Below, piece by piece: positions 45,250 through 63,946 of a stretch of 64,000 nucleotides of DNA. The translations under genes and the position numbers were made by a program. Location of the stretch: the NCBI RefSeq assembly GCF_019649055.1, contig NW_026570227.1:2046001-2110000 (forward strand). Reading direction: 5' to 3'. Every line of letters starts with the position of its first letter. Within the stretch, counting starts at the first letter, position 1. The DNA is from Paramacrobiotus metropolitanus (Eukaryota > Tardigrada > Eutardigrada > Parachela > Macrobiotidae). A model generated the notes under the pieces. It was not told the origin of the DNA. It searched no databases and saw nothing but the letters and a program-made list of their open reading frames with translations.

Positions 45250-48179
45250 TTATTATTATTATTATTATTACATCAGGAGCAGACAACCCGCTAAACGTTA
45301 CTTCAACGTCTGGTCGGCACAACACTAAACAAAATAACAATTTCTAAGACAAATCAACTGTTCGGAGAGCAAATTTGAAAAATCCCACACCATCAACACT
45401 GAGTATATGCAAGTTAACTTTTTGTATGCGCTCAAAGATGTTCTTTAGTCGCATGGCCAGCGTGCCTTCTCCGATCTTCTTCTTCGCTCTGGCAGCAATT
45501 CTCGTTGGGTTCCGCAGGTTGTGCCGCATTCCGAAATCCGTGAAGTCGATCATCTCGACCATGTACCTCAGCGGATGGTATGCTTCGTGATTGTAGATCT
45601 TATACAACCAAACCGCTTAAGACTGCTTCCAACGGTCGTACACCGGCAGGATGCGCAGTTTCTGATACAGCTCGGGTGTAACCCGCTCCTTGTAATCAGA
45701 AATCGCCCGCAGTGCTTTCCGCTGTGCCCTGTCTATCTTGTCGCGTAAAGCCGAAGATGCCGGCGACCACGTACCTGACCCGTAGTCAAGTTGTGGCTGT
45801 ACACAGGCATGGTAAAGGCTCCTACGCTGAGGCAGATCCAGGCCGTCTTTCGCGCGGTTGATCATTGCGATGCCGTAGTTGAATTTCCGCAGTACGTGAT
45901 CGTAATGCACACTCCACTTCAGGTTGCGGTCAATGTAAACGCCAAGATACTTGACCGACTGTTCCGCTTCCATCTGATAACCGCTGATCGTTACAGCAGG
46001 AGAGTGCTGGCTGTTCTTTGCGTCCGAGCAGATGTACATTAGCTTGCACTTCTTCTCGTTAATGCAAAAGGTGTTGTCTGCAAGCCAAGCCGTCACGTTG
46101 TTAATTTGAACTGTCAGTTTCGCTGCTGCTTCTGTTTTGGTGGCACCGCATCCGAACAGTATGGTGTCATCTGCAAAACATTCTGCGTCGCTTCCGTTAG
46201 TCATGTCGTTCGTATAAACCGTATACAGTACAGGCGCCATCAGCGTCCCTTGCGGAACTCCCGACCGCACTGGTAGCCAGTCAGACACACGCGCGGTTAC
46301 TTTCACTCTCTGCTTCCGACTGGTTAAGTAACCATGAAACGATTCCGATCGTTCTTAGTTTTTCGAGGAGTTTGGCATGGGAAACCGAATCAAACGCCTT
46401 TTTCAGGTCAAGGAGACATATAGCAGTGACATGCCCGTTATCGATTGCTTTTCGCCATCTCTCCGAAACTTTAAGGAGCAGTGTTTCACAGGAGTGTCCT
46501 TCTCTAAATCCAGACTGCTTGTCGGAAAGGATGTTGTTTTTTTTCAGAGCGGTCACCAACTGATTCTGCACTACCTTCTCAAAAGTTTTGGAGAGATTGC
46601 ATACGAGGGATATGGGGCGATAGTCATCTGACTGTTGGGCATTGGCTTGCTTTGGTATTGCCACTACATCGGCACTTTTGAAAATATCAGGATATACTCC
46701 GGACTTCAGCAAAGCATTAATCATGCACGTCAACGGTTTCGTTAAATACTTGCTGATTCCACCGAGGATTTTTGCAGGCATACCACTTGGTCCAGCGCTT
46801 TTTTTTCGTTTGGCCATCTTCTGCAACTGGAAAGAAACGACATCCTCGGTGACTTCTTCAAATCTGCAAAGCAAAGGGTTAGTACTGCCACCGCCCGAAG
46901 GGGTGGGTGGCGTAGCGTGTTCATTGCCATGCAGTCCTTGTGCTACAAAGTGCGCATTCAGTAAATTCGGATCCAGTGCTGGCTCTTCCGTTTGTTTTCT
47001 CTTCCGAAGTAATTTTCCAAGCTCGCGCCAAATCACTTCTCCAGCATCCCGGTTGTGTTGGAAGAATTTCCGTTTTTCGTCGATAATAGCAAAGCGGACT
47101 TGTTTTTTCAGTGCGTGAAAATGATCGTCATACTGCGTGTATTCGGGTTGCTCACGGAACTGGCACCGAAGGCGGTAGGCTTGATTCTTTTCTTTTATTA
47201 GGTTTTTTAACGACATGCTCATCCAGGGTGGATCATCCTGGCGAACTCTTCGGGATCTTAGGGGATAGCACTTTTCAACGATCTGGTTCAATTCATTCAC
47301 ATAATTTGTTATAAAATCTTCGATGGGGATTGATTCGTCATACACACTGAACTTCTCTGAAACTACATGAACGCGCTGGTGGAACACTTCCTCTGGTGTA
47401 TGCTTCCACAATCGGAACGTAATCGTTTTATGTACAGGACTTGCTGATTTGTAGGACGCAACTGTTCTGCATAGTCTGTGATCTGAAAAGCACACGTCCT
47501 CGGCTGGCAAAGAGGAATAACTTTCTGCTGGTGAACACAGCATCACGTCAATCTTCTTAGCACTGTGCATTAATGTACCATCTTTCTTCCGAGTTCGACA
47601 AGCTATCCTGGTATATCCCGCTACCGTATCGATCAACGCATGATTGTTCAATAAACCGCGATAATAGGGAGAAGACTGTACTGAGACGTCAATGTTAATA
47701 TCGCCACATACCACATGATCAATACCAGGATACTTAAGCAACATTTCGTCCACATGGTTAAAAAGAAATTCAGTATCAATGGCGCTGGCATCAGGGGCTC
47801 TGTACAAGATTCCAAGTAGCACCTTTCGCTGTCCTATCTGGAGGAGAACCCACAAGCTTTCACAACGCCCGCACGTTTCAGTTCTGCGAACCTCTTGACA
47901 TGGGATATGAGCAGGACAATAAAGTAGCAGGCCACCCCCCCTTGTTTTACCCGATGCTTTCGTGCGGTCCTTACGAAACAGTTGGTAGTTAGCAAAGGTG
48001 TAGAGCTGATCCGGATCATTATCAGACAGATGAGATTCCGAAAGACATAAAATTTTAGACTGATTATCCTGATTAAGTAGCAACTGATGGAGTAGGTCGA
48101 CTTTAGCATAAGATAGTCCCTGGACGTTTAAATGATGAAAAACAACGGTCGAGAGCCTACACTGTTTCTTATTCCCCAT
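45250..48179 (-). mobile_element. Non-LTR retrotransposon (LINE), ORF2 with two breaks, (TAA)n tail
   Basis: Minus strand. The frame from 48179 encodes an AP-type endonuclease (HHLNVQGL, CLSESHLSD, GDINID, SDHRL) and then the start of reverse transcriptase (DDYRPISLVCNLSKTFEKVV, LLDLKKAFDSVSH). A one-base frame change near 46340 moves the remainder into another frame (SGVPQGTLMAPVL, AECFADDTILFG). A TAA at about 45619 then interrupts it, after which the frame runs on to 45344 with an arginine/lysine-rich end (NLRNPTRIAARAKKK). The plus-strand (ATT)n at 45250-45270 is the (TAA)n tail typical of I and related clades. No RNase H domain and no ORF1 upstream. Dead and probably 5'-truncated. Confidence 0.88.
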
Positions 48180-48740
48180 AGTGCGAAAGCGTACTCAAAT
48201 ACAGCAACCAACCACGGAAAAGATGCAGAAAAACTTTACCTACATTTTGGTACAAAAAAACTTAAGAATTATTCCATGTTTACGAAACTAAATCAATAAC
48301 TTTATGCTGGCTCGACGGAGCTAAACTTAGCCCGCCAGCCAGCTCTGATTAACTGTAAACGGTAAATGTACAGTAAATGCCCAGCGCCCACAATAGTGGT
48401 TAGTAGAAAACTAATCACATTTAAATTCATAGCTTCTCTCGACAGTCCTTCCCATGCTTTTCACAATAAGGCATTGAAACGTGCTCGAATAAATCGTCGG
48501 TTCGTTTGGGCCCACTCTTGATTTTCCTACAGAGCTAACACGATTAAGATACTACTGTGTTGTCAGATAGCGTAAAGCTACAGTGTCTTTGTCCATTTAT
48601 CGAAGGCAATCAAAGGTCAAAGTCAGAGCCCCACCTTCACAAGATATGGTCAGTGTTTTGCGCGTTTCAAGTTTGTGGTACAAAACAGCAGACAAAACAC
48701 ACTAGATAAAAACCAGAAACTATCAAGCCAGAACAGAAAG
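48180..48740. other. Spacer between the LINE and the receptor kinase pseudogene
   Basis: May include the LINE 5' UTR; no ORF1-like frame found. Confidence 0.4.
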
Positions 48741-48879
48741 GTATTATAGATCGTTGTTGCCATCCACTGCGACGTAGTCTTCAGGATGATTAATGTTGAA
48801 GGTCACGTATTGCTTGTTGAAATCCATGTACAAACGCTGTGCATTTTTCCCACATGCTGGTGTAGAATTTGTGTCGAAA

Positions 48880-48995
48880 AATATCAGTTCGTTTTATTTA
48901 GTTATGACATTATGCGCGAATGTTGGGAATACGAAGCGGAGAACCGGCCGACCTTTAGGTCACTCAGTCGGAAGATTGAGCCCTACGATATTTAA
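48880..48995 (+). other. Inverted kinase subdomain XI exon inside the receptor kinase pseudogene
   Basis: On the plus strand, tttag is followed by an exon encoding YDIMRECWEYEAENRPTFRS, the subdomain XI of the kinase, whereas every neighbouring kinase exon, including the C-tail at 48744-48870, is on the minus strand. Copy 2 (63037-62842) has the same sequence collinear with its C-tail. Confidence 0.85.
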
Positions 48996-49320
48996 GGTTT
49001 ACAATGACAATGACGACATGAGCGTTTAGCGGGGAAATACTGTTAAGAGTATGACATTCATTTCTTCTGAGTTCTGGGCACTTTGATGGGATCTTCAATC
49101 GCAGCCCCTTCCCTAAAGCTGCTGTGATTCCTTCATACGTCAGGTTTTTTTGATTGTGTCGTGATATGGAATGTCGCCAAAAGAAAAGATCTCCCATATG
49201 ACCACACCGAAGGACCACACGTCGGATCTCTCTGAGAACAGCCGTTGCTCTAAACTTTCTGGTGCCATCCAACGAGCGGGAACCATAGCGCTCTAAAAGT
49301 TTATTTGGTTAAAACGCATA

Positions 49321-50070
49321 CCTTAACAGAATAGAGTTTACTGGGCAATAGCCGCCATAACAACAAAAGTGCAAGCGCCGGCACACTACTTTACAGTTAA
49401 AATTTAAACAACCAAAACAAACAACCAAAAAAAAAACAACCAAAATCTTTATCCGCCCGCGGGTTAAAAGGCAACGTACTTAACACAGCAGTAGCATTTC
49501 CCTTAACGACAACCAAACTAAAACGTTGCTTCATAAAAGCAGTAGAACGCGCTTCTCCAGTTAATTCACGAGTTTTACGGCTCATAAAATGTACAAATTC
49601 ACTTAAAGCTAGGCCAATATAACAGAGGCAGCCATAAATCGGCTGTCCGTGATGATCTCAGCGAGGGAGGGCGGTCAGATGAAGATCCTGTCTGTTGAGG
49701 AAATTCCGAAAAATGGCGATGGAGCGGAATCGAACCGCTGGCTACCGAGTGAGATCCACGTAGCACAGGCCACAGCCACTGTGCCATCGCCGCTGTTGGC
49801 GAAGATCAAGATATTTGTGCTTGAGCTTAAGCCAACCAGGTAGGCGGCGGATTGGCTGCTGCTGTGTCTAAAGAGGATTCTCCTCTTACACCAAAGACAC
49901 CGAACGTTTCAACAACTAAGGGATAGAACAGCTACTTTCCAGTGGAGAGTACTTCTGTCGCTTCTCACTTTCTGCCAGGTGAGCCACACTTCCTGCCTTC
50001 TTCGAACTTCCGTGGACATGGGAAGTACGTGTTAAGTACACTGCCTTTTAACCGCGGGCCTTAACAGAAT
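49321..50070. mobile_element. Insertion carrying a tRNA-like sequence, in an intron of the receptor kinase pseudogene
   Basis: The 12-mer ccttaacagaat occurs at 49321-49332 and 50059-50070 as a possible target duplication. Inside, cccgcgggttaaaaggcaac (from 49456) is roughly inverted at about 50030-50058 (tgccttttaaccgcgggcc). A tRNA-like unit lies near the middle. No coding capacity. Confidence 0.5.
49715..49791 (-). ncRNA. tRNA-like gene (non-standard anticodon arm; SINE head or tRNA)
   Basis: Minus strand: acceptor stem GCGATGG/CCATCGC pairs fully, A box TGGCACAGTGG, T arm AGCGG-TTCGATT-CCGCT pairs fully, B box GGTTCGATTCC, and ATTTTTC just after as Pol III terminator. The anticodon region forms GCTAC/GTAGC with a 14-nt loop or GTG/CAC with a 12-nt loop, neither standard. 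Amino acid not assigned. Confidence 0.6.
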
Positions 50071-51086
50071 TAAATTAATTTCAGCTTCAAGTTTGAATTA
50101 ATGTGGACTTTACTCTTATTTAACATTTAAAAATAGGTGGTGGCTATTCGCCAGAACATATACTTCGCCAAAAACAACTTGCCAACTTTCGTGCTGTATA
50201 AAATACACTTAGTTTGTTCTTTGTACCTGCGATTCTTCCATCCGGTAGTAATCAGGTTTCTGCTTGGCCAGTCCGAAATCGCAGATCTTCAGCACCTTCT
50301 TGTCCCATACCAGAATATTCCGCGCGGCTAAATCGCGATGGATGATGTTATACAGCGCCAAGTGCTCCATGCCACGGCTGATCTGATAAGTGAAATTAAT
50401 CAGATCTTCCGTTTTCAGGGCCATTCTTTGGGGATATTCGGTTCGCGGCCAGCCACTGTAAATTTCTCCATGCCCTCGTTTAAATAACTGTTCTCATCGG
50501 TTCTTCTCTCGAATAGTTCGTCGTGGAAGCGGAGATACTTAAGTAGACTGCCGTGTGGAGAGAATTCCAGAATTATATGAAGTTGACCTTTGCGCACAAC
50601 CAGATTAGTGTCAAAACAGTACGTCCCAAAGTACCGTTTATAACCAATTAACATTTTACTCGTACAATTACACTTGTTTGTTTTAAACCCGAATTACCAC
50701 CGACGACCCTATAAAAATTTTCCTTTATAGTACGTTGAAATAACGACATTACCGCTGAGTGTGATGCCCAGAAGGTTGACAATATTCACATGCCGGCCCG
50801 CTTTACTGCGTACCGTCACCTCGTCCATCAGCAGTTTGTGCTGATAATCATCAGCGGAGTTCTTGACGCATTTAATCACCACGACCGACGGGGACGGCCA
50901 TTCTGATAAATGATATGCTAATCCCTTCCACACTTCACCAAATTCACCTTCATCAAGTTTCTTATCTAAATGTAAGAAGCAAAGAGACAATAACTGCAGG
51001 TAGAACAAGAAAAACAGTCCACTTTTTTTGTACGAGGTGCCACCGTTTAAGAAAATCTATCGAGCTAATTCACCCACTCCTCGTAC

Positions 51087-52118
51087 CAAACTGGAGAGAG
51101 GCTCTTGGAATCTTCAGTCTTGCTGCCAATGGTGGGACTTTCCACGTCACATACTGTTCCTTAATAAGCTGAATTCTGGAGTCGTCCACTTCGCGGACGA
51201 CATCGCAGAACACTCTTTGCAAATACGCTGGCTGCGTGGAACTGACTGACGGATAGCGACGCCGCCAACACCACACTCCGAATAGCGCAAACACCAGCGC
51301 CAAAACGCCAGCCAACGCTAGCCACATCTTCCACTGCGCATCCACCAGAGGGTCCACCGATTCGTTCGCTGGACTTATCGATGTCCCCATCGGATTCATT
51401 GAAGTCAACGGTAACAGTGGATCCAGTTTGCGCACCGCGATGTAGTCCACTAACAGTTCTGCTTCCGCATTCACCGGATACCGTTGCGGGGAAACATCCA
51501 ATTCGATTAAGATTTGCATGGGTGTAGACGGGATAATCGCGGCATCGGTTAGCCGGCGAATCTCCACATCGTCCACATACCAGTGCATACTGTCGCTGCC
51601 CCATCTGACTTTAAAATTGTGAAACTGCCCATCCAGGAGGTCGTTACGACCCGTTTGGATCCAGGAAGTTTCCTGGTTCAGGTAAAACACACCGACTTTC
51701 ACGCCGTTGGGTTCGCCACTCTTCAAATGTGCCACGGAGATGACTTCGTCACTGCCCGCCGGCGACTGATCAAACCGGCATTCCGCGTCAATTAAGCGAA
51801 ATTTAGATGTCAATAAAATTCTGGGATTTGCCGGTAGTTTTGCTTGGAATTCAATTTCCCCGTAGGTGAAATTGAAATGCTGGCCGGAGCTGATGTGGCT
51901 GACGTAGTAATACGCATATGAGGCGCTGAACGCTGTGCTGCGAGCCTGCATATGCAGAAATCCATCGGAGACCCACACATTCTCGTGTCTGGTATATACC
52001 GTGTACCGGTACGGCGTGTAGAATTTCTCTGTTTGGACATGATTGCGTACGTTCCATTCACTGCGTAGCGTGTGGTTGCTGTCGAAGTCATCACGAAACG
52101 GTTCTGTACTGGTGACAT
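51087..52118 (-). other. GH16-like (beta-glucanase/lectin fold) domain and membrane helix of the receptor kinase
   Basis: One uninterrupted 344-codon exon. It opens with the GH16 start pattern FRDDFDSNHTLRSEWNV and VWVSDGFLHMQARS, then YGEIEFQAKLP, then FHNFKVRWGSDSMHWYVDDV and ELLVDYIAVRKLDP, the order of strands seen in beta-1,3-glucanases and Gram-negative-binding proteins. The catalytic ExDxxE is not found: the expected place reads SDEVISVAHLK. A membrane helix (WLALAGVLALVFALFGVWCW) and a stop-transfer RRR follow. The juxtamembrane part ends WKVPPLAARLKIPRASLQF, which joins in phase to the kinase G-loop exon, the usual spacing of RTKs. Confidence 0.8.
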
Positions 52119-52831
52119 CTGCAATATTCGTATTACCGAGTATTCGGATTTTGCTCGTAACCGGTGCATGCGGAGTGCTGGTTTAACTGTGTTCTGTGAT
52201 ATCATTTTCGACTAACAGTGCGGCCGTGCCGAATTTTTATGTTTAATACGAGTACACCATACACCTTATTCATAAGTCATCACAGAGTATGCAAATGCTA
52301 CAAAATCAAGGTACTGTACTGAATCCACTATAAATCTAAAATAACAAAGAAATACACTGATGTTGTAATGACGTTTTTCCACTTTTTGACGTACTGGTAC
52401 AAGCGTTTTCGTCGTGGTACTCGGCTGCATTATTTCCATTGACAGCGGTTCTAAGCTCGGTCGGGCAAGTAAAACGTTCCTTCCAATGCCCTTCGCAAGC
52501 CAAATAGCGGGATACATAGCCTCTCAGGGCACGGCAGCGGATCTATGCGCTAAATTCCTTGCCGGGTGGTTTGGTCTATTACAAACCACTCGTTTTGTAT
52601 CTGCTGTTGTGGAGGAATCACTGTTTATTCGTACATTTGCCAGGGTGTACGAAACAGGAACCTAGGCGTACTGAATACAAATCCGGGTTCAACGCCGTAC
52701 CTTATAATTATTATCATTTTAATTTTTAAAATGATAATATAATATAAGTACATTAAAATTTGACTACTGTACACTGTACATACACTACTGTACACTGTAA
52801 ATTTAAGTACTGTACACTGTACATTACGTAC

Positions 52832-53084
52832 CAATCACGAGAGTGTACTGGAATTGGATTTGATGGCTCCTGTCGACGGTCATGTTTCCCCGAATTAAAT
52901 GTAGTACTAGGGTAACATTATGGTAAAAATACGCAGTCTGAAACTGTCCCACACTGGCGGCCGAATTATCCACATCGTGACGGATGACTTTCAACAGTGG
53001 TCCGTATGGGCCGTTAAGCCCTTTCTGGTGCACTCTCAGTTCATCGTCCTCCGGCATCGTGGATTCCCTGCACGTAGGTCCCAA
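52832..53084 (-). other. Ectodomain exon upstream of the GH16-like domain
   Basis: Phase 0 in (acceptor aatag before TTGGGACC) and phase 1 out (donor gtacgt at 52831), matching the GH16 exon. It encodes 84 residues with alternating polar and aliphatic residues (FQTAYFYHNVTLVLHLIR) and one N-glycosylation site, like a beta-sandwich edge. No family recognised. Confidence 0.5.
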
Positions 53085-53499
53085 CTATTACACCGATACC
53101 TATCTTATTCTTTGTCAGCTGTAAACTTTGAAATGCTGGAAGTTCTCGACCGGCCTTCAATGAATTGTACATTTCATGAGCCGAAGTATTCTAAGCAGGA
53201 TTGATTTGATTCTTAATCATGAAGTATGGGCAGATATTATGTAATGCGACTACAATTTTTACCACTTTTTACTACTACATATCTGGGTTGCTATTGCCTG
53301 TTCACGTACGTATACACGATTGCGGTTAGTGATATCGCCCTCATGTTGGTGACGGTGAATCGTTTTAAGAACTTATTAATTAATCATCAACAGAAAGCAG
53401 AAAGTACCTTTATCTATCGTTTAAAGTTTTTTTGCGTTTAAACACTTTCTACCCGTAGGTGGGGGTTATGTAGCCGGTAGCATACCGGATATTAACATA

Positions 53500-53761
53500 A
53501 ACACTGCATAATCCATTGATGGCAGGTGGCGCGACAATCGTCATGGACCGTACAGGATTGCTCCGGATAGTTGAATAACATGAAGCTGCCGCCGTATCTG
53601 CCAGTCTCCTTAATCGTCAACGACTCTTTATTACAGTACCATTCCAGCAGATCTTCGGTGGTACCTGAATCGCCGAGGATTCCAAGCAAACTGATGGCCA
53701 AAGCAATTGCTGAGGAAACTATCATGTTATGTTGGCAGTTGTAGCGGCTGCCGACCTCCAT
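53500..53761 (-). other. Possible first exon with signal peptide and Cys-rich segment
   Basis: ATG 53761; a hydrophobic stretch (IVSSAIALAISLLGILG), then about 50 residues with five or six cysteines (CTVHDDCRATCHQW). A donor in the right phase for the next exon was not found, so a missing small exon or a separate gene is possible. Confidence 0.35.
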
Positions 53762-53921: not shown

Positions 53922-55211
53922 CAGCCCTGCCGCGCCAAGTTTGGACAGTTTAGTCAACATTTTTTCTCTAGTCACCACCGGTGCTAACTAACGATATTTT
54001 TTGTGTTACCTATGCAACTTTTCCTCCTGCATTTAATGAAATTAAAAGTTTTGAATTTACTTCGGCAATGCCTCGGGAAACTGCTCCCGAGGCGAAGGCG
54101 TCAGTTGTTGCGCTCTTGTCAGAAGGTTTGTCCCTGAGGAAGATTCAGGAACGCCTTTTGACGCTTGGAATTGTAATCAGCAAGTCGACCGTTAGCAACA
54201 TCAGCCATGAACAAAAGAGAATCGCAGCTGGCTGGACGAAGCCCGCAAAACGGCTCGGCGCGCAAAACCTCCCTTCTTCCCGGACAAAACCCGTAATCGC
54301 AAAGGTCAAGAAGGCTGTGTCCAGGCAGAATCCAGAGACGCAAACAAGGATTGCTAAGAGACTGGGGATAGCACGCAGTACAATGCAAAAGATTCTTTCT
54401 GAAAATCTTCAGCTGAAAAGGAGGAAGAAGCGAAAAGTTCACGTCCTCACTGAGAAGCAGAAGCAGCAGCGCTACGATCGGGGAAAGGTGTTCATTTCCT
54501 ATCTGGGGATGTTCAAAGTCCGGATGATATTTACCATGGATGAAACATGGGTCACATTAGATGATTTTAATGTGCAAACGGACTTTTACTACGCGGGCGG
54601 GGAAATGGAAGTGCCGGACGACTGGAAGAAAAAGCCAACTAAGCGCTGGCCACAAAAAGTCATGATTGCTGTTGGAATTTGCTGGAACGGAATGTCGCGG
54701 GCCTATTGCGTGGATGGAAAAGCCAAAGTAGACGCAAAATACTTTGTGAACGAGATTTTGTCAAAAATGGTCAACTATGATATCCCCCGGCTCTATGGCG
54801 CCCACGCGAAGGACGTCATCCTCCATTTCGACAACGCCCGTAGTCATACTGCAAAGGTCACGCAGCAGTGGCTGAAATCGAACGAGGTAAAGTATGTTCC
54901 GCAGGAACATTGGATGGCCAACAGCCCTGACTTATCTCGGTTGGACTACGGAATCAGTGGAATTTTTAAGCAAATTTTTGGTGGCAGGAAGGCTACCACG
55001 GTGGGTGGGTTGAGCCGAATTGTGAAGCAGGTGTGCTCTAGTTTTGATCTCAGTGTTATTCGTAATACTCTCCAATCGTGGAATCCCCGAGTGCAAAAGA
55101 TGTTGGATACCTTTGGTGATCATGTAGAAATTTAATAGTTATTTATTTACTAGCGTGTGACCTATGGGAATTTTTTTTAAGAAAGTGTCCAAACTTGGCG
55201 CGGCAGGGCTG
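53922..55211 (+). mobile_element. Complete mariner-type transposon (DD37D, maT-like)
   Basis: Terminal inverted repeats of about 28 bp (CAGCCCTGCCGCGCCAAGTT inward from 53922, and its complement ending at 55211) flanked by TA on both sides (53920-53921 and 55212-55213). Length 1290 bp with an uninterrupted transposase. It lies 160 bp upstream of the receptor kinase pseudogene's possible start. Confidence 0.92.
54068..55135 (+). CDS. Mariner transposase, DD37D
   Basis: 355 residues from ATG 54068 (MPRETAPEAKASVVALLSEG), chosen because the paired helix-turn-helix DNA-binding region begins there; an ATG-less extension upstream is open. First HTH about residues 5-50 (LSLRKIQERLLTLGIVISKS), second about 90-125 (TRIAKRLGIARSTMQKIL). 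The catalytic triad is MDETW, HFDNARSHTA and SPDLSRLDYG, with 37 residues between the second and third acidic residues, the spacing of the maT group. No stop or frameshift. It may be functional. Confidence 0.9.
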   Translation: MPRETAPEAKASVVALLSEGLSLRKIQERLLTLGIVISKSTVSNISHEQKRIAAGWTKPAKRLGAQNLPSSRTKPVIAKVKKAVSRQNPETQTRIAKRLGIARSTMQKILSENLQLKRRKKRKVHVLTEKQKQQRYDRGKVFISYLGMFKVRMIFTMDETWVTLDDFNVQTDFYYAGGEMEVPDDWKKKPTKRWPQKVMIAVGICWNGMSRAYCVDGKAKVDAKYFVNEILSKMVNYDIPRLYGAHAKDVILHFDNARSHTAKVTQQWLKSNEVKYVPQEHWMANSPDLSRLDYGISGIFKQIFGGRKATTVGGLSRIVKQVCSSFDLSVIRNTLQSWNPRVQKMLDTFGDHVEI

Positions 55212-62841: not shown

Positions 62842-63946
62842 TTATTGCGAATCGCTGCTATCCACTGCGATATAATCTTCAGCGTGCTTCATATTGAACA
62901 CTACATATTGCTTGTTCAAATCCATGTACTCGCACTGTGCATCTTTGCCCACATGCGGCTCCACCTTTTGGCTGAGGGCGCTAAAGCTCGGTCGCTTTTC
63001 CGCTTCATACTCCCAGCACCCGCTCATAATTTCAAACCTACAAATTAAGAAAATTTGTTTTGGCATCACAAGAAAAATTAAAACGACCACATAGTATCAC
63101 AATTTTAACACTTAGTTTCAAAATATCGAATCAACCGGAAAAATACTCGAATGACGTACATTTCTTCCGGGCACTTGGAGGGAATTTTCAACCTCAGCCC
63201 TTTTCGTAGAGCGGCTGTAATGTCCTCATACGACAGGTTTTTGATTGTGTCATGGTACGGGATCTCCCCGTAAGAAAAGATCTCCCACATGACAATACCA
63301 AAGGACCACACGTCGGATCTCTCCGAAAACATACGTTGTTCTAAGCTTTCCGGTGCCATCCAGCGGGCGGGCACTTTAGCATTCTACAAATTCGTTCGTT
63401 ATTATATAGTACTAAACTGTAATAGCGCAATAAGTACAATAATTCCTTAATCTACTTATGTACCAGTTAAATAAAGCTAGATTTATTAATCATACCGTAT
63501 ATTTGCCTTAGTATTTTAAAAGTATTAGAGTAACGTTTCTCGTAGTATACGCTTCTCTATTGTACATGCAGTTTCTCCTCATACCTGTGATTCAGCCATT
63601 CGGTAGTAATCCGCTTTCTGTTTGGCCAGTCCGAAATCACAGATCTTCAGCACTTTATTATCGCACACTAGAATATTCCTTGCGGCCAGATCGCGGTGAA
63701 TGATGTTGTGCAGCGCCAAGTACTCCATGCCACGGCTGATCTGGTACGTGAAATTAATCAGATCTTCCGTCTTGAGCGGCCATTCCTGAGGGACATTCGG
63801 TTCCCGACCGGCAATCGAAAAGTTGACCATGCCCTCGTTCAGATAATTAGTTTCGTCGGTTTTCCCTTCGAATAATTTCCCATGCAGGCGAAGATACTTC
63901 AGCAAGCTACCATGTGGCGAAAATTCCAGGATTATGTGGAGTTGAC
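62842..63946 (-). CDS. Receptor tyrosine kinase, copy 2, C-terminal kinase exons (5' part beyond window)
   Basis: Minus strand, three clean exons: 63946-63585, 63383-63160 and 63037-62842. In order: [20 protein letters not shown] (hinge), a short insert, [13 protein letters not shown] (catalytic loop), [15 protein letters not shown] (DFG and activation tyrosines), [46 protein letters not shown], and a tail with YMDL and DYIAV tyrosine sites that could recruit SH2 proteins. All catalytic residues visible here are kept, so this copy should be active. Split-kinase-like insert and motifs resemble PDGFR/VEGFR/FGFR-type RTKs. By its close paralogue, its missing ectodomain is expected to hold the GH16-like fold. 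The G-loop exon is not in the window. Confidence 0.88.

Follow-up and report, generated by a model that had tools for sequence, protein, structure and literature searches.

Can an animal receptor tyrosine kinase (RTK) carry a glucanase-type fold as its ectodomain, and what would such a receptor sense? The question is raised by a stretch of 64,000 nucleotides (hereafter the window; GC 43.9%) from the tardigrade Paramacrobiotus metropolitanus (assembly GCF_019649055.1, contig NW_026570227.1, positions 2,046,001 to 2,110,000), whose minus strand holds a domain of glycoside hydrolase family 16 (GH16) followed by tyrosine kinase exons. Analysis of this locus and of its relatives in the genome indicates that the window holds one member of a multigene family of predicted single-pass RTKs. 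We further propose, with a probability of roughly 60%, that these GH16 kinases and related kinases with peptidoglycan recognition protein (PGRP) ectodomains form a repertoire of pattern-recognition receptor kinases that sense microbes. The GH16 RTK architecture put forward in the initial annotation was thus borne out, but not its standing as a lone curiosity, as the window copy is one of at least 26 loci. Loci and contigs are cited below by our own handles (L and C numbers).

The window gene and the adjoining copy were laid out as follows (window coordinates):

53486-53761, minus strand: exon E1, with ATG, hydrophobic start and first half of an N-terminal domain; from paralogue comparison, ends by eye; frame break near 53545
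52832-53067, minus strand: exon E2, second half of the N-terminal domain; from paralogue comparison, splice ends by eye
52390-52584, minus strand: exon E3, Cys-containing (RCRALRGYVSRYLACEG...); from paralogue comparison, ends approximate; TAG at 52545-52543 and a frame change
51087-52118, minus strand: GH16-membrane helix-juxtamembrane exon; GH16 at 52107-51427, helix at 51333-51265, phase-1 donor after 51087
50753-50965, minus strand: kinase exon TK1, with glycine loop (G-loop), VVIK lysine and NLLGITLSG; PF07714, 38.1 bits
50227-50587, minus strand: kinase exon TK2, with hinge, insert and catalytic loop; PF07714, 74.7 bits over a 65-residue catalytic-loop stretch; frame change near 50420
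49072-49292, minus strand: kinase exon TK3, including WSFGVVIWE, lower end approximate; the reading frame changes near 49150, at an A-run
48858-48982, plus strand: part of the last kinase exon in inverted orientation (YDIMRECWEYEAENRPTFRSL...), from the nucleotide match to L005; limits approximate
48744-48857, minus strand: C-terminal tail with QYVTFN and stop codon; from paralogue comparison
62878-63944, minus strand: TK4, TK3 and TK2 of L005, the adjoining tandem copy; its GH16 exon falls past the end of the window

The initial annotation had assigned a GH16 domain, a membrane helix and a juxtamembrane region to one exon at 52118-51087, and these limits proved right. The exon lies in an open frame of 370 codons (52182-51070, minus strand) and is read from 52116, with AT at 52118-52117 completing the preceding codon, remaining open to 51070. 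A search against PF00722 (Glyco_hydro_16) had been named there as the check, with a failure to match counting against the GH16 assignment; the exon matched above the cut-off (40.9 bits against 22; E 2e-10) and also matched laminarinase structures in the PDB at 1.3e-6. PF00722 was its only Pfam match, with no Ig-like ectodomain of the VEGFR/PDGFR/FGFR type. The membrane helix, WKMWLALAGVLALVFALFGVWCW, was located by eye, and the juxtamembrane segment, which shares the exon with GH16 and helix, ends in KIPRASLQFG. The predicted join in phase to a G-loop exon at 50965-50753 also held: the donor (G51087, then GTACGA) is of phase 1, the acceptor AG is followed by the kinase exon from 50965, and the splice product reads LQFG-D-KKLDEGEFGEVWKG. 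The TK1 exon aligns to PF07714 (cut-off 23.1 bits) only from profile position 5, and the start of the kinase fold is therefore placed on the GH16 exon. In paralogue L008, the stretch IPRRALKIGRERKLDEGEFG aligned with VEGFR2 across the junction between GH16 exon and kinase exon (phmmer).

At locus L009 the junction has no intron, and a single 399-codon frame (911-2107) contains the GH16 domain (47.1 bits), a single membrane helix and the kinase start through NLLGMIFSG, the last with a partial-length match to PF07714 that stays under the cut-off (19.8 bits). The GH16-kinase fusion is thus independent of any predicted splice, since GH16, helix and G-loop share one frame. L010 is likewise intronless at this place and has the C-terminal part of GH16, the helix and the G-loop in one frame as judged by family hidden Markov models (HMMs) and by eye, while the same fragment gave no match in Pfam. 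Across the 24 loci of our detailed set (23 plus the window copy, from the 26), a phase-1 donor occupied the same juxtamembrane place in 16, and the acceptor lay 8 or 11 nucleotides ahead of the glycine loop in 21, the exceptions being L014, which is out of register, and the two intronless loci. A layout known from the genome alone, with broken frames in the window copy, might raise the suspicion that separate GH16 and kinase genes merely lie side by side. Such an artefact has next to no probability: order, strand and phase are common to many loci, and the single frame of L009 contradicts it, unless a stop or an intron was missed there.

To place the window copy in its family, the genome (169,799,020 bases in 533 contigs) was searched with the window exon translation and PF00722, and the GH16 matches were merged to 44 blocks; adjacency was counted with 104 of the 135 kinase catalytic-loop matches of the genome. 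A PF00982 match (trehalose-phosphate synthase type) was also obtained in this genome. For 29 of the 44 blocks the same strand carried a catalytic-loop match no more than 5 kb downstream, involving 26 distinct kinases, where chance would give 0.0012 per block; this adjacency is not a product of chance. Two further blocks had a downstream kinase at 5.9-6.8 kb, and one had its nearest kinase on the opposite strand. The order GH16, TK1, TK2, TK3, TK4 on one strand recurs across the 24 loci, the inverted piece of the window excepted; E-values of the exon HMMs are not independent measures, because the HMMs were trained on matches from these same loci. In 14 of the 24, each of the four kinase exons is complete within a single frame, several others show frame breaks that reflect either decay or assembly error, and a tandem array on C7 includes broken copies. 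The number of nonsynonymous substitutions per site (dN) was higher in GH16 than in the kinase in 10 of 12 pairs of copies, with a ratio near 1 in one pair.

Several variants of the arrangement were seen. L022 (C25:1170500-1175500) has two successive GH16 domains upstream of a single kinase. GH16 copies with no kinase found downstream include L029, L030, L031, L032 and L033, of which L029, L031 and L032 keep the membrane helix in the GH16 frame; copies of this kind might be decoys, co-receptors or remnants. The two-exon N-terminal domain (window 53486-53761 and 52832-53067) is present in part of the family; in L008, L027 and L025 it had no Pfam or PDB-profile match, and our impression by eye of a CUB domain found nothing to sustain it in either search.

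The GH16 domain itself appears to have kept its fold and lost its chemistry. We aligned the stand-alone gene L037 with 19 copies of the family, of which 14 come from kinase loci and five from loci with no detected kinase. PF00722 was recognised in all 20 domains (E at most 0.001), and a profile of the alignment, L037 included, matched laminarinases in the PDB at 4.5e-33. Whereas L037 retains PP-EIDVM-E, and with it an intact ExDxxE signature of GH16 enzymes, all 19 family copies lack the nucleophile Glu and the signature's Asp, and L012 alone still has the second Glu. Because of the missing Glu and Asp, the family GH16 domain is predicted to be CATALYTICALLY dead and lectin-like. In this respect it resembles the arthropod beta-glucan recognition proteins (GNBPs), in which a glucanase-like fold has also lost its catalytic residues. 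GNBPs, however, are secreted or surface-bound and have no kinase, whereas the tardigrade domain precedes a membrane helix and tyrosine kinase in the predicted protein, for which reason we do not class these receptors as GNBPs; Pfam detected no insect-type N-terminal glucan-binding domain in them.

The kinase part is of the tyrosine type (PF07714). In the PDB, a two-copy EGFR construct ranked first for the L008 kinase, whose best matches were otherwise VEGFR, FGFR and PDGFR. VxxK, HRD and DFG were each found in 23 of the 24 loci, and a Y-x-x-F/Y-N motif in the tail of 20. The predicted tardigrade receptors share with VEGFR, PDGFR and FGFR a single-pass layout, a kinase with an insert and the best single-domain structural matches, but differ in the ectodomain, which is GH16 here and Ig-like there. 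In a kinase tree of 33 rows, with three outgroup rows and a weak root, the PGRP kinases formed a well supported clade (100/99) and the GH16 kinases fell into several clades. Two loci depart from the usual kinase. L036 (C98:216500-220800), a GH16 locus with four complete kinase exons, is a probable pseudokinase receptor, since it lacks VxxK and DFG. L019 (C136:164500-170000) has three tandem catalytic-loop segments spaced by 312 bases in one open frame, and the copy within the longest match has HCD in place of HRD.

Is GH16 the only ectodomain on this kinase module? Seventeen kinase loci that had no GH16 match in the first searches (L039-L055) were examined, and comprised four with divergent GH16, four with PGRP, two with MAM-like repeats, one each with IPT/TIG, astacin, CUB-like, LRR-like and Cys-rich (L050) ectodomains, and two unassigned (L044, L053). 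The divergent GH16 loci (L045, L046, L047, L052) were matched solely by the family's own HMM; the Pfam score of L047 was 21.4 bits (cut-off 22), and pieces of the other three had no match there. PGRP exons were found at L041, L042, L043 and L055, the joined L041 exons matching PGRP structures at 3.7e-18; at L041 and L042 an exon for a membrane helix precedes the kinase. Among 25 PGRP places compiled from single-protein genome searches, a same-strand tyrosine-kinase loop lay downstream of 13, and for 12 of these the distance was no more than 3.4 kb; the Pfam amidase model recovered just two PGRP places genome-wide, the better of which is not at a listed kinase. PGRP-kinase loci were found on contigs C63, C89, C118 and C6. 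At five of them a second PGRP gene, with no kinase match of its own, stands head-to-head with the PGRP kinase:

C63, 751807-752254, minus strand: head-to-head PGRP gene
C63, 785206-785618, minus strand: head-to-head PGRP gene
C63, 790924-791365, minus strand: head-to-head PGRP gene
C63, 798786-799218, minus strand: head-to-head PGRP gene
C6, 2739795-2740235, plus strand: head-to-head PGRP gene

Insect PGRP-LC likewise presents a PGRP ectodomain on a single-pass receptor, but has no kinase and signals through an adaptor motif, whereas the tardigrade loci bear a kinase. The one PGRP place sampled among those on C51 has another type of kinase: at L056 (C51:751200-756200) a PGRP exon (3.6e-6) and a helix stand in a row on one strand with a kinase of Ser/Thr type (PF00069, 91.4 bits, nearest NEK7), making this possibly a PGRP receptor Ser/Thr kinase.

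The remaining ectodomains widen the comparison. L039 has IPT/TIG repeats (101 bits) that recall those of MET/RON, and its kinase groups with those of L009 and L010 (93/92, not starred), so that it looks like an ectodomain exchange inside the family. L051 (C139:304500-308900), with Pfam scores of 74.9 and 48 bits, has an astacin domain (HELMHTLGFYHEHQRPDRD) ahead of a helix and tyrosine kinase and is possibly a protease-headed RTK. MAM-like repeats, which recall ALK/LTK, were noted at L048 (by eye) and L049 (18.2 bits, cut-off 26.4), LRR-like repeats at L054 (17.4 bits, cut-off 27) and a CUB-like domain at L040 (18.7 bits, cut-off 21.4); these three types are tentative because their scores fall under the Pfam cut-offs. 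Plant receptor-like kinases offer a parallel in that many ectodomain types (lectin, LysM, LRR or chitinase-like) sit on a shared helix-kinase module in large tandem families; theirs are Ser/Thr kinases, however, while the tardigrade ones are tyrosine kinases, with L056 as the sampled exception.

Taken together, these features suggest how a member of the family might work. The predicted protein consists of a dead GH16 domain of beta-1,3-glucanase fold, preceded in some family members by the N-terminal domain, then a helix, a short juxtamembrane region, an insert kinase like that of VEGFR, PDGFR and FGFR, and a tail which in most copies carries a Tyr-x-x-Phe-Asn motif. The GH16 groove would bind a beta-glucan-like polysaccharide of microbial origin (fungal, oomycete, algal or bacterial), and a ligand of this repetitive kind would cluster receptors; the kinases would then trans-phosphorylate their activation-loop tyrosines and afterwards the tail tyrosine, which in its phosphorylated state would recruit SH2 or PTB adaptors. 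A putative role as glycan-sensing immune receptor fits both the dead catalytic site and the PGRP kinases of the same genome. More tentative, at somewhat less than even odds, is a wider picture of plant-like animal immunity, in which GH16, PGRP, astacin, IPT and probably MAM- and LRR-like ectodomains on a shared module, deployed as tens of tandem receptors, would signal through phosphotyrosine (and Ser/Thr) where other panarthropods use Toll and Imd.

The ligand need not be microbial. The GH16 domain could bind a polysaccharide or glycoprotein of the animal's own cuticle or eggshell, with the kinase controlling growth, moulting or egg-shell formation; RTKs with matrix ligands exist, DDR among them, and astacin, a protease type frequent in matrix remodelling, heads the related kinase L051. 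We nevertheless consider own-matrix sensing unlikely, because a family of many copies, with members in tandem arrays and others broken, is easier to reconcile with microbe sensing than with a conserved part in development, and because PGRP ectodomains on related kinases favour microbes. It is likewise unlikely, in our estimate, that GH16 has been turned into a protein-binding module, for example for secreted GH16/PGRP proteins or growth-factor-like ligands. Such a change would agree with the loss of catalytic residues in 19 of 19 copies and with the stand-alone PGRP genes, whose head-to-head position with PGRP kinases allows for ligand-receptor pairs; on the other hand, the glucanase fold is still recognised in every one of the 19. 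Very improbable, finally, is a role as chemosensory or food receptors for algae, fungi or prey, to which expanded families of fast turnover would be suited, as these are typical of chemosensation, but which sits less well with PGRP ectodomains, which indicate bacterial cell wall, though this too is a possible food cue.

Sensing of microbes by GH16 and PGRP kinases, the reading that we prefer, finds outside support in what is reported of tardigrade immunity. In the portion of Mapalo 2020 used here (PMC7056985), neither intracellular Toll components nor GNBP1/3 homologues were found in the examined tardigrades, Imd genes were few, and NF-kB homologues were reported to be absent; it is the undetected Toll components and GNBP1/3 that lend this support.

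Several observations nevertheless weigh against our preferred reading. A Rel-homology match (PF00554, 39.6 bits) lies at C124:21443-21652, and a passage of another study mentions a 'relish-like' family for Hypsibius and Ramazzottius (PMC5531438); together these weaken the idea of missing NF-kB signalling, and with one such match found, a complete absence of NF-kB-type factors is unsupported. A GH16 fold that has no catalytic activity can have proteins or endogenous matrix as its binding partners as well, and AlphaFold2, run on the window GH16 domain without an alignment, gave a predicted local distance difference test score of 30.9, a model that was not used. For 12 of the 44 GH16 blocks, no kinase match lay within 8 kb. 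In the pairs L013-L015 and L014-L015 the kinase evolves faster than GH16, and the ratio of nonsynonymous to synonymous rates (dN/dS) over the whole GH16 domain was below 1 in all 10 computable pairs, leaving positive selection on GH16 unsupported at whole-domain level. The family architecture, moreover, is known here from genomic sequence.

Whatever its ligand, the GH16 RTK architecture is a new variant of RTK. The initial annotation knew of no described animal RTK family with a GH16 ectodomain, and we found neither a GH16- nor a PGRP-bearing RTK described in the full-text literature searched (titles and abstract openings), a result that is no proof of absence, because preprints and most subscription journals lie outside that literature. 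In the part of PMC5531438 used here, which gives no description of the ectodomains, 27 kinase clusters are reported that occur only in tardigrades and are congruent in domain architecture; members of the GH16-kinase family may be among them. If the proposed function is shown, the repertoire would represent a kind of pattern-recognition system new among animals. The family would stand as a class of RTKs whose ectodomain has a glycoside hydrolase fold, as an animal example of pattern recognition coupled directly to a tyrosine kinase, and as a convergence with plant receptor kinases. For microbe sensing in tardigrades, the GH16 and PGRP kinases provide a direct, testable candidate.

The window copy itself had been taken for an intact gene, which comparison with its paralogues contradicts. 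Its frame changes in the first exon, the Cys exon, TK2 and TK3 (placed partly by eye) are accompanied by the in-frame TAG of the Cys exon and by the inverted piece, where L005 1458-1541 matches window 48982-48899 in inverse orientation relative to the adjoining collinear match at 48758-48857; this is a micro-inversion of about 125 bases within the last kinase exon. On these grounds the window copy is probably broken. Against the tandem copy L005, however, its dN/dS was 0.19 for GH16 and 0.05 for the kinase (dS above 1), low values suggesting that it was constrained for most of its history and was either lost recently or is partly misassembled. The published Paramacrobiotus assembly (TYO / P. 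metropolitanus; 170,483,395 bases, 684 scaffolds, GC 43.46%) combines Nanopore and Illumina reads according to the part of its description used here (PMC8277472), so that some of the lesions, above all those in homopolymers, could be assembly errors. The gene is flanked at 46284-48194 (minus strand) by a frame with an RVT_1 match and a weak endonuclease match, and on its other side, at 53972-55132 (plus strand), by a frame with weak transposase-type matches.

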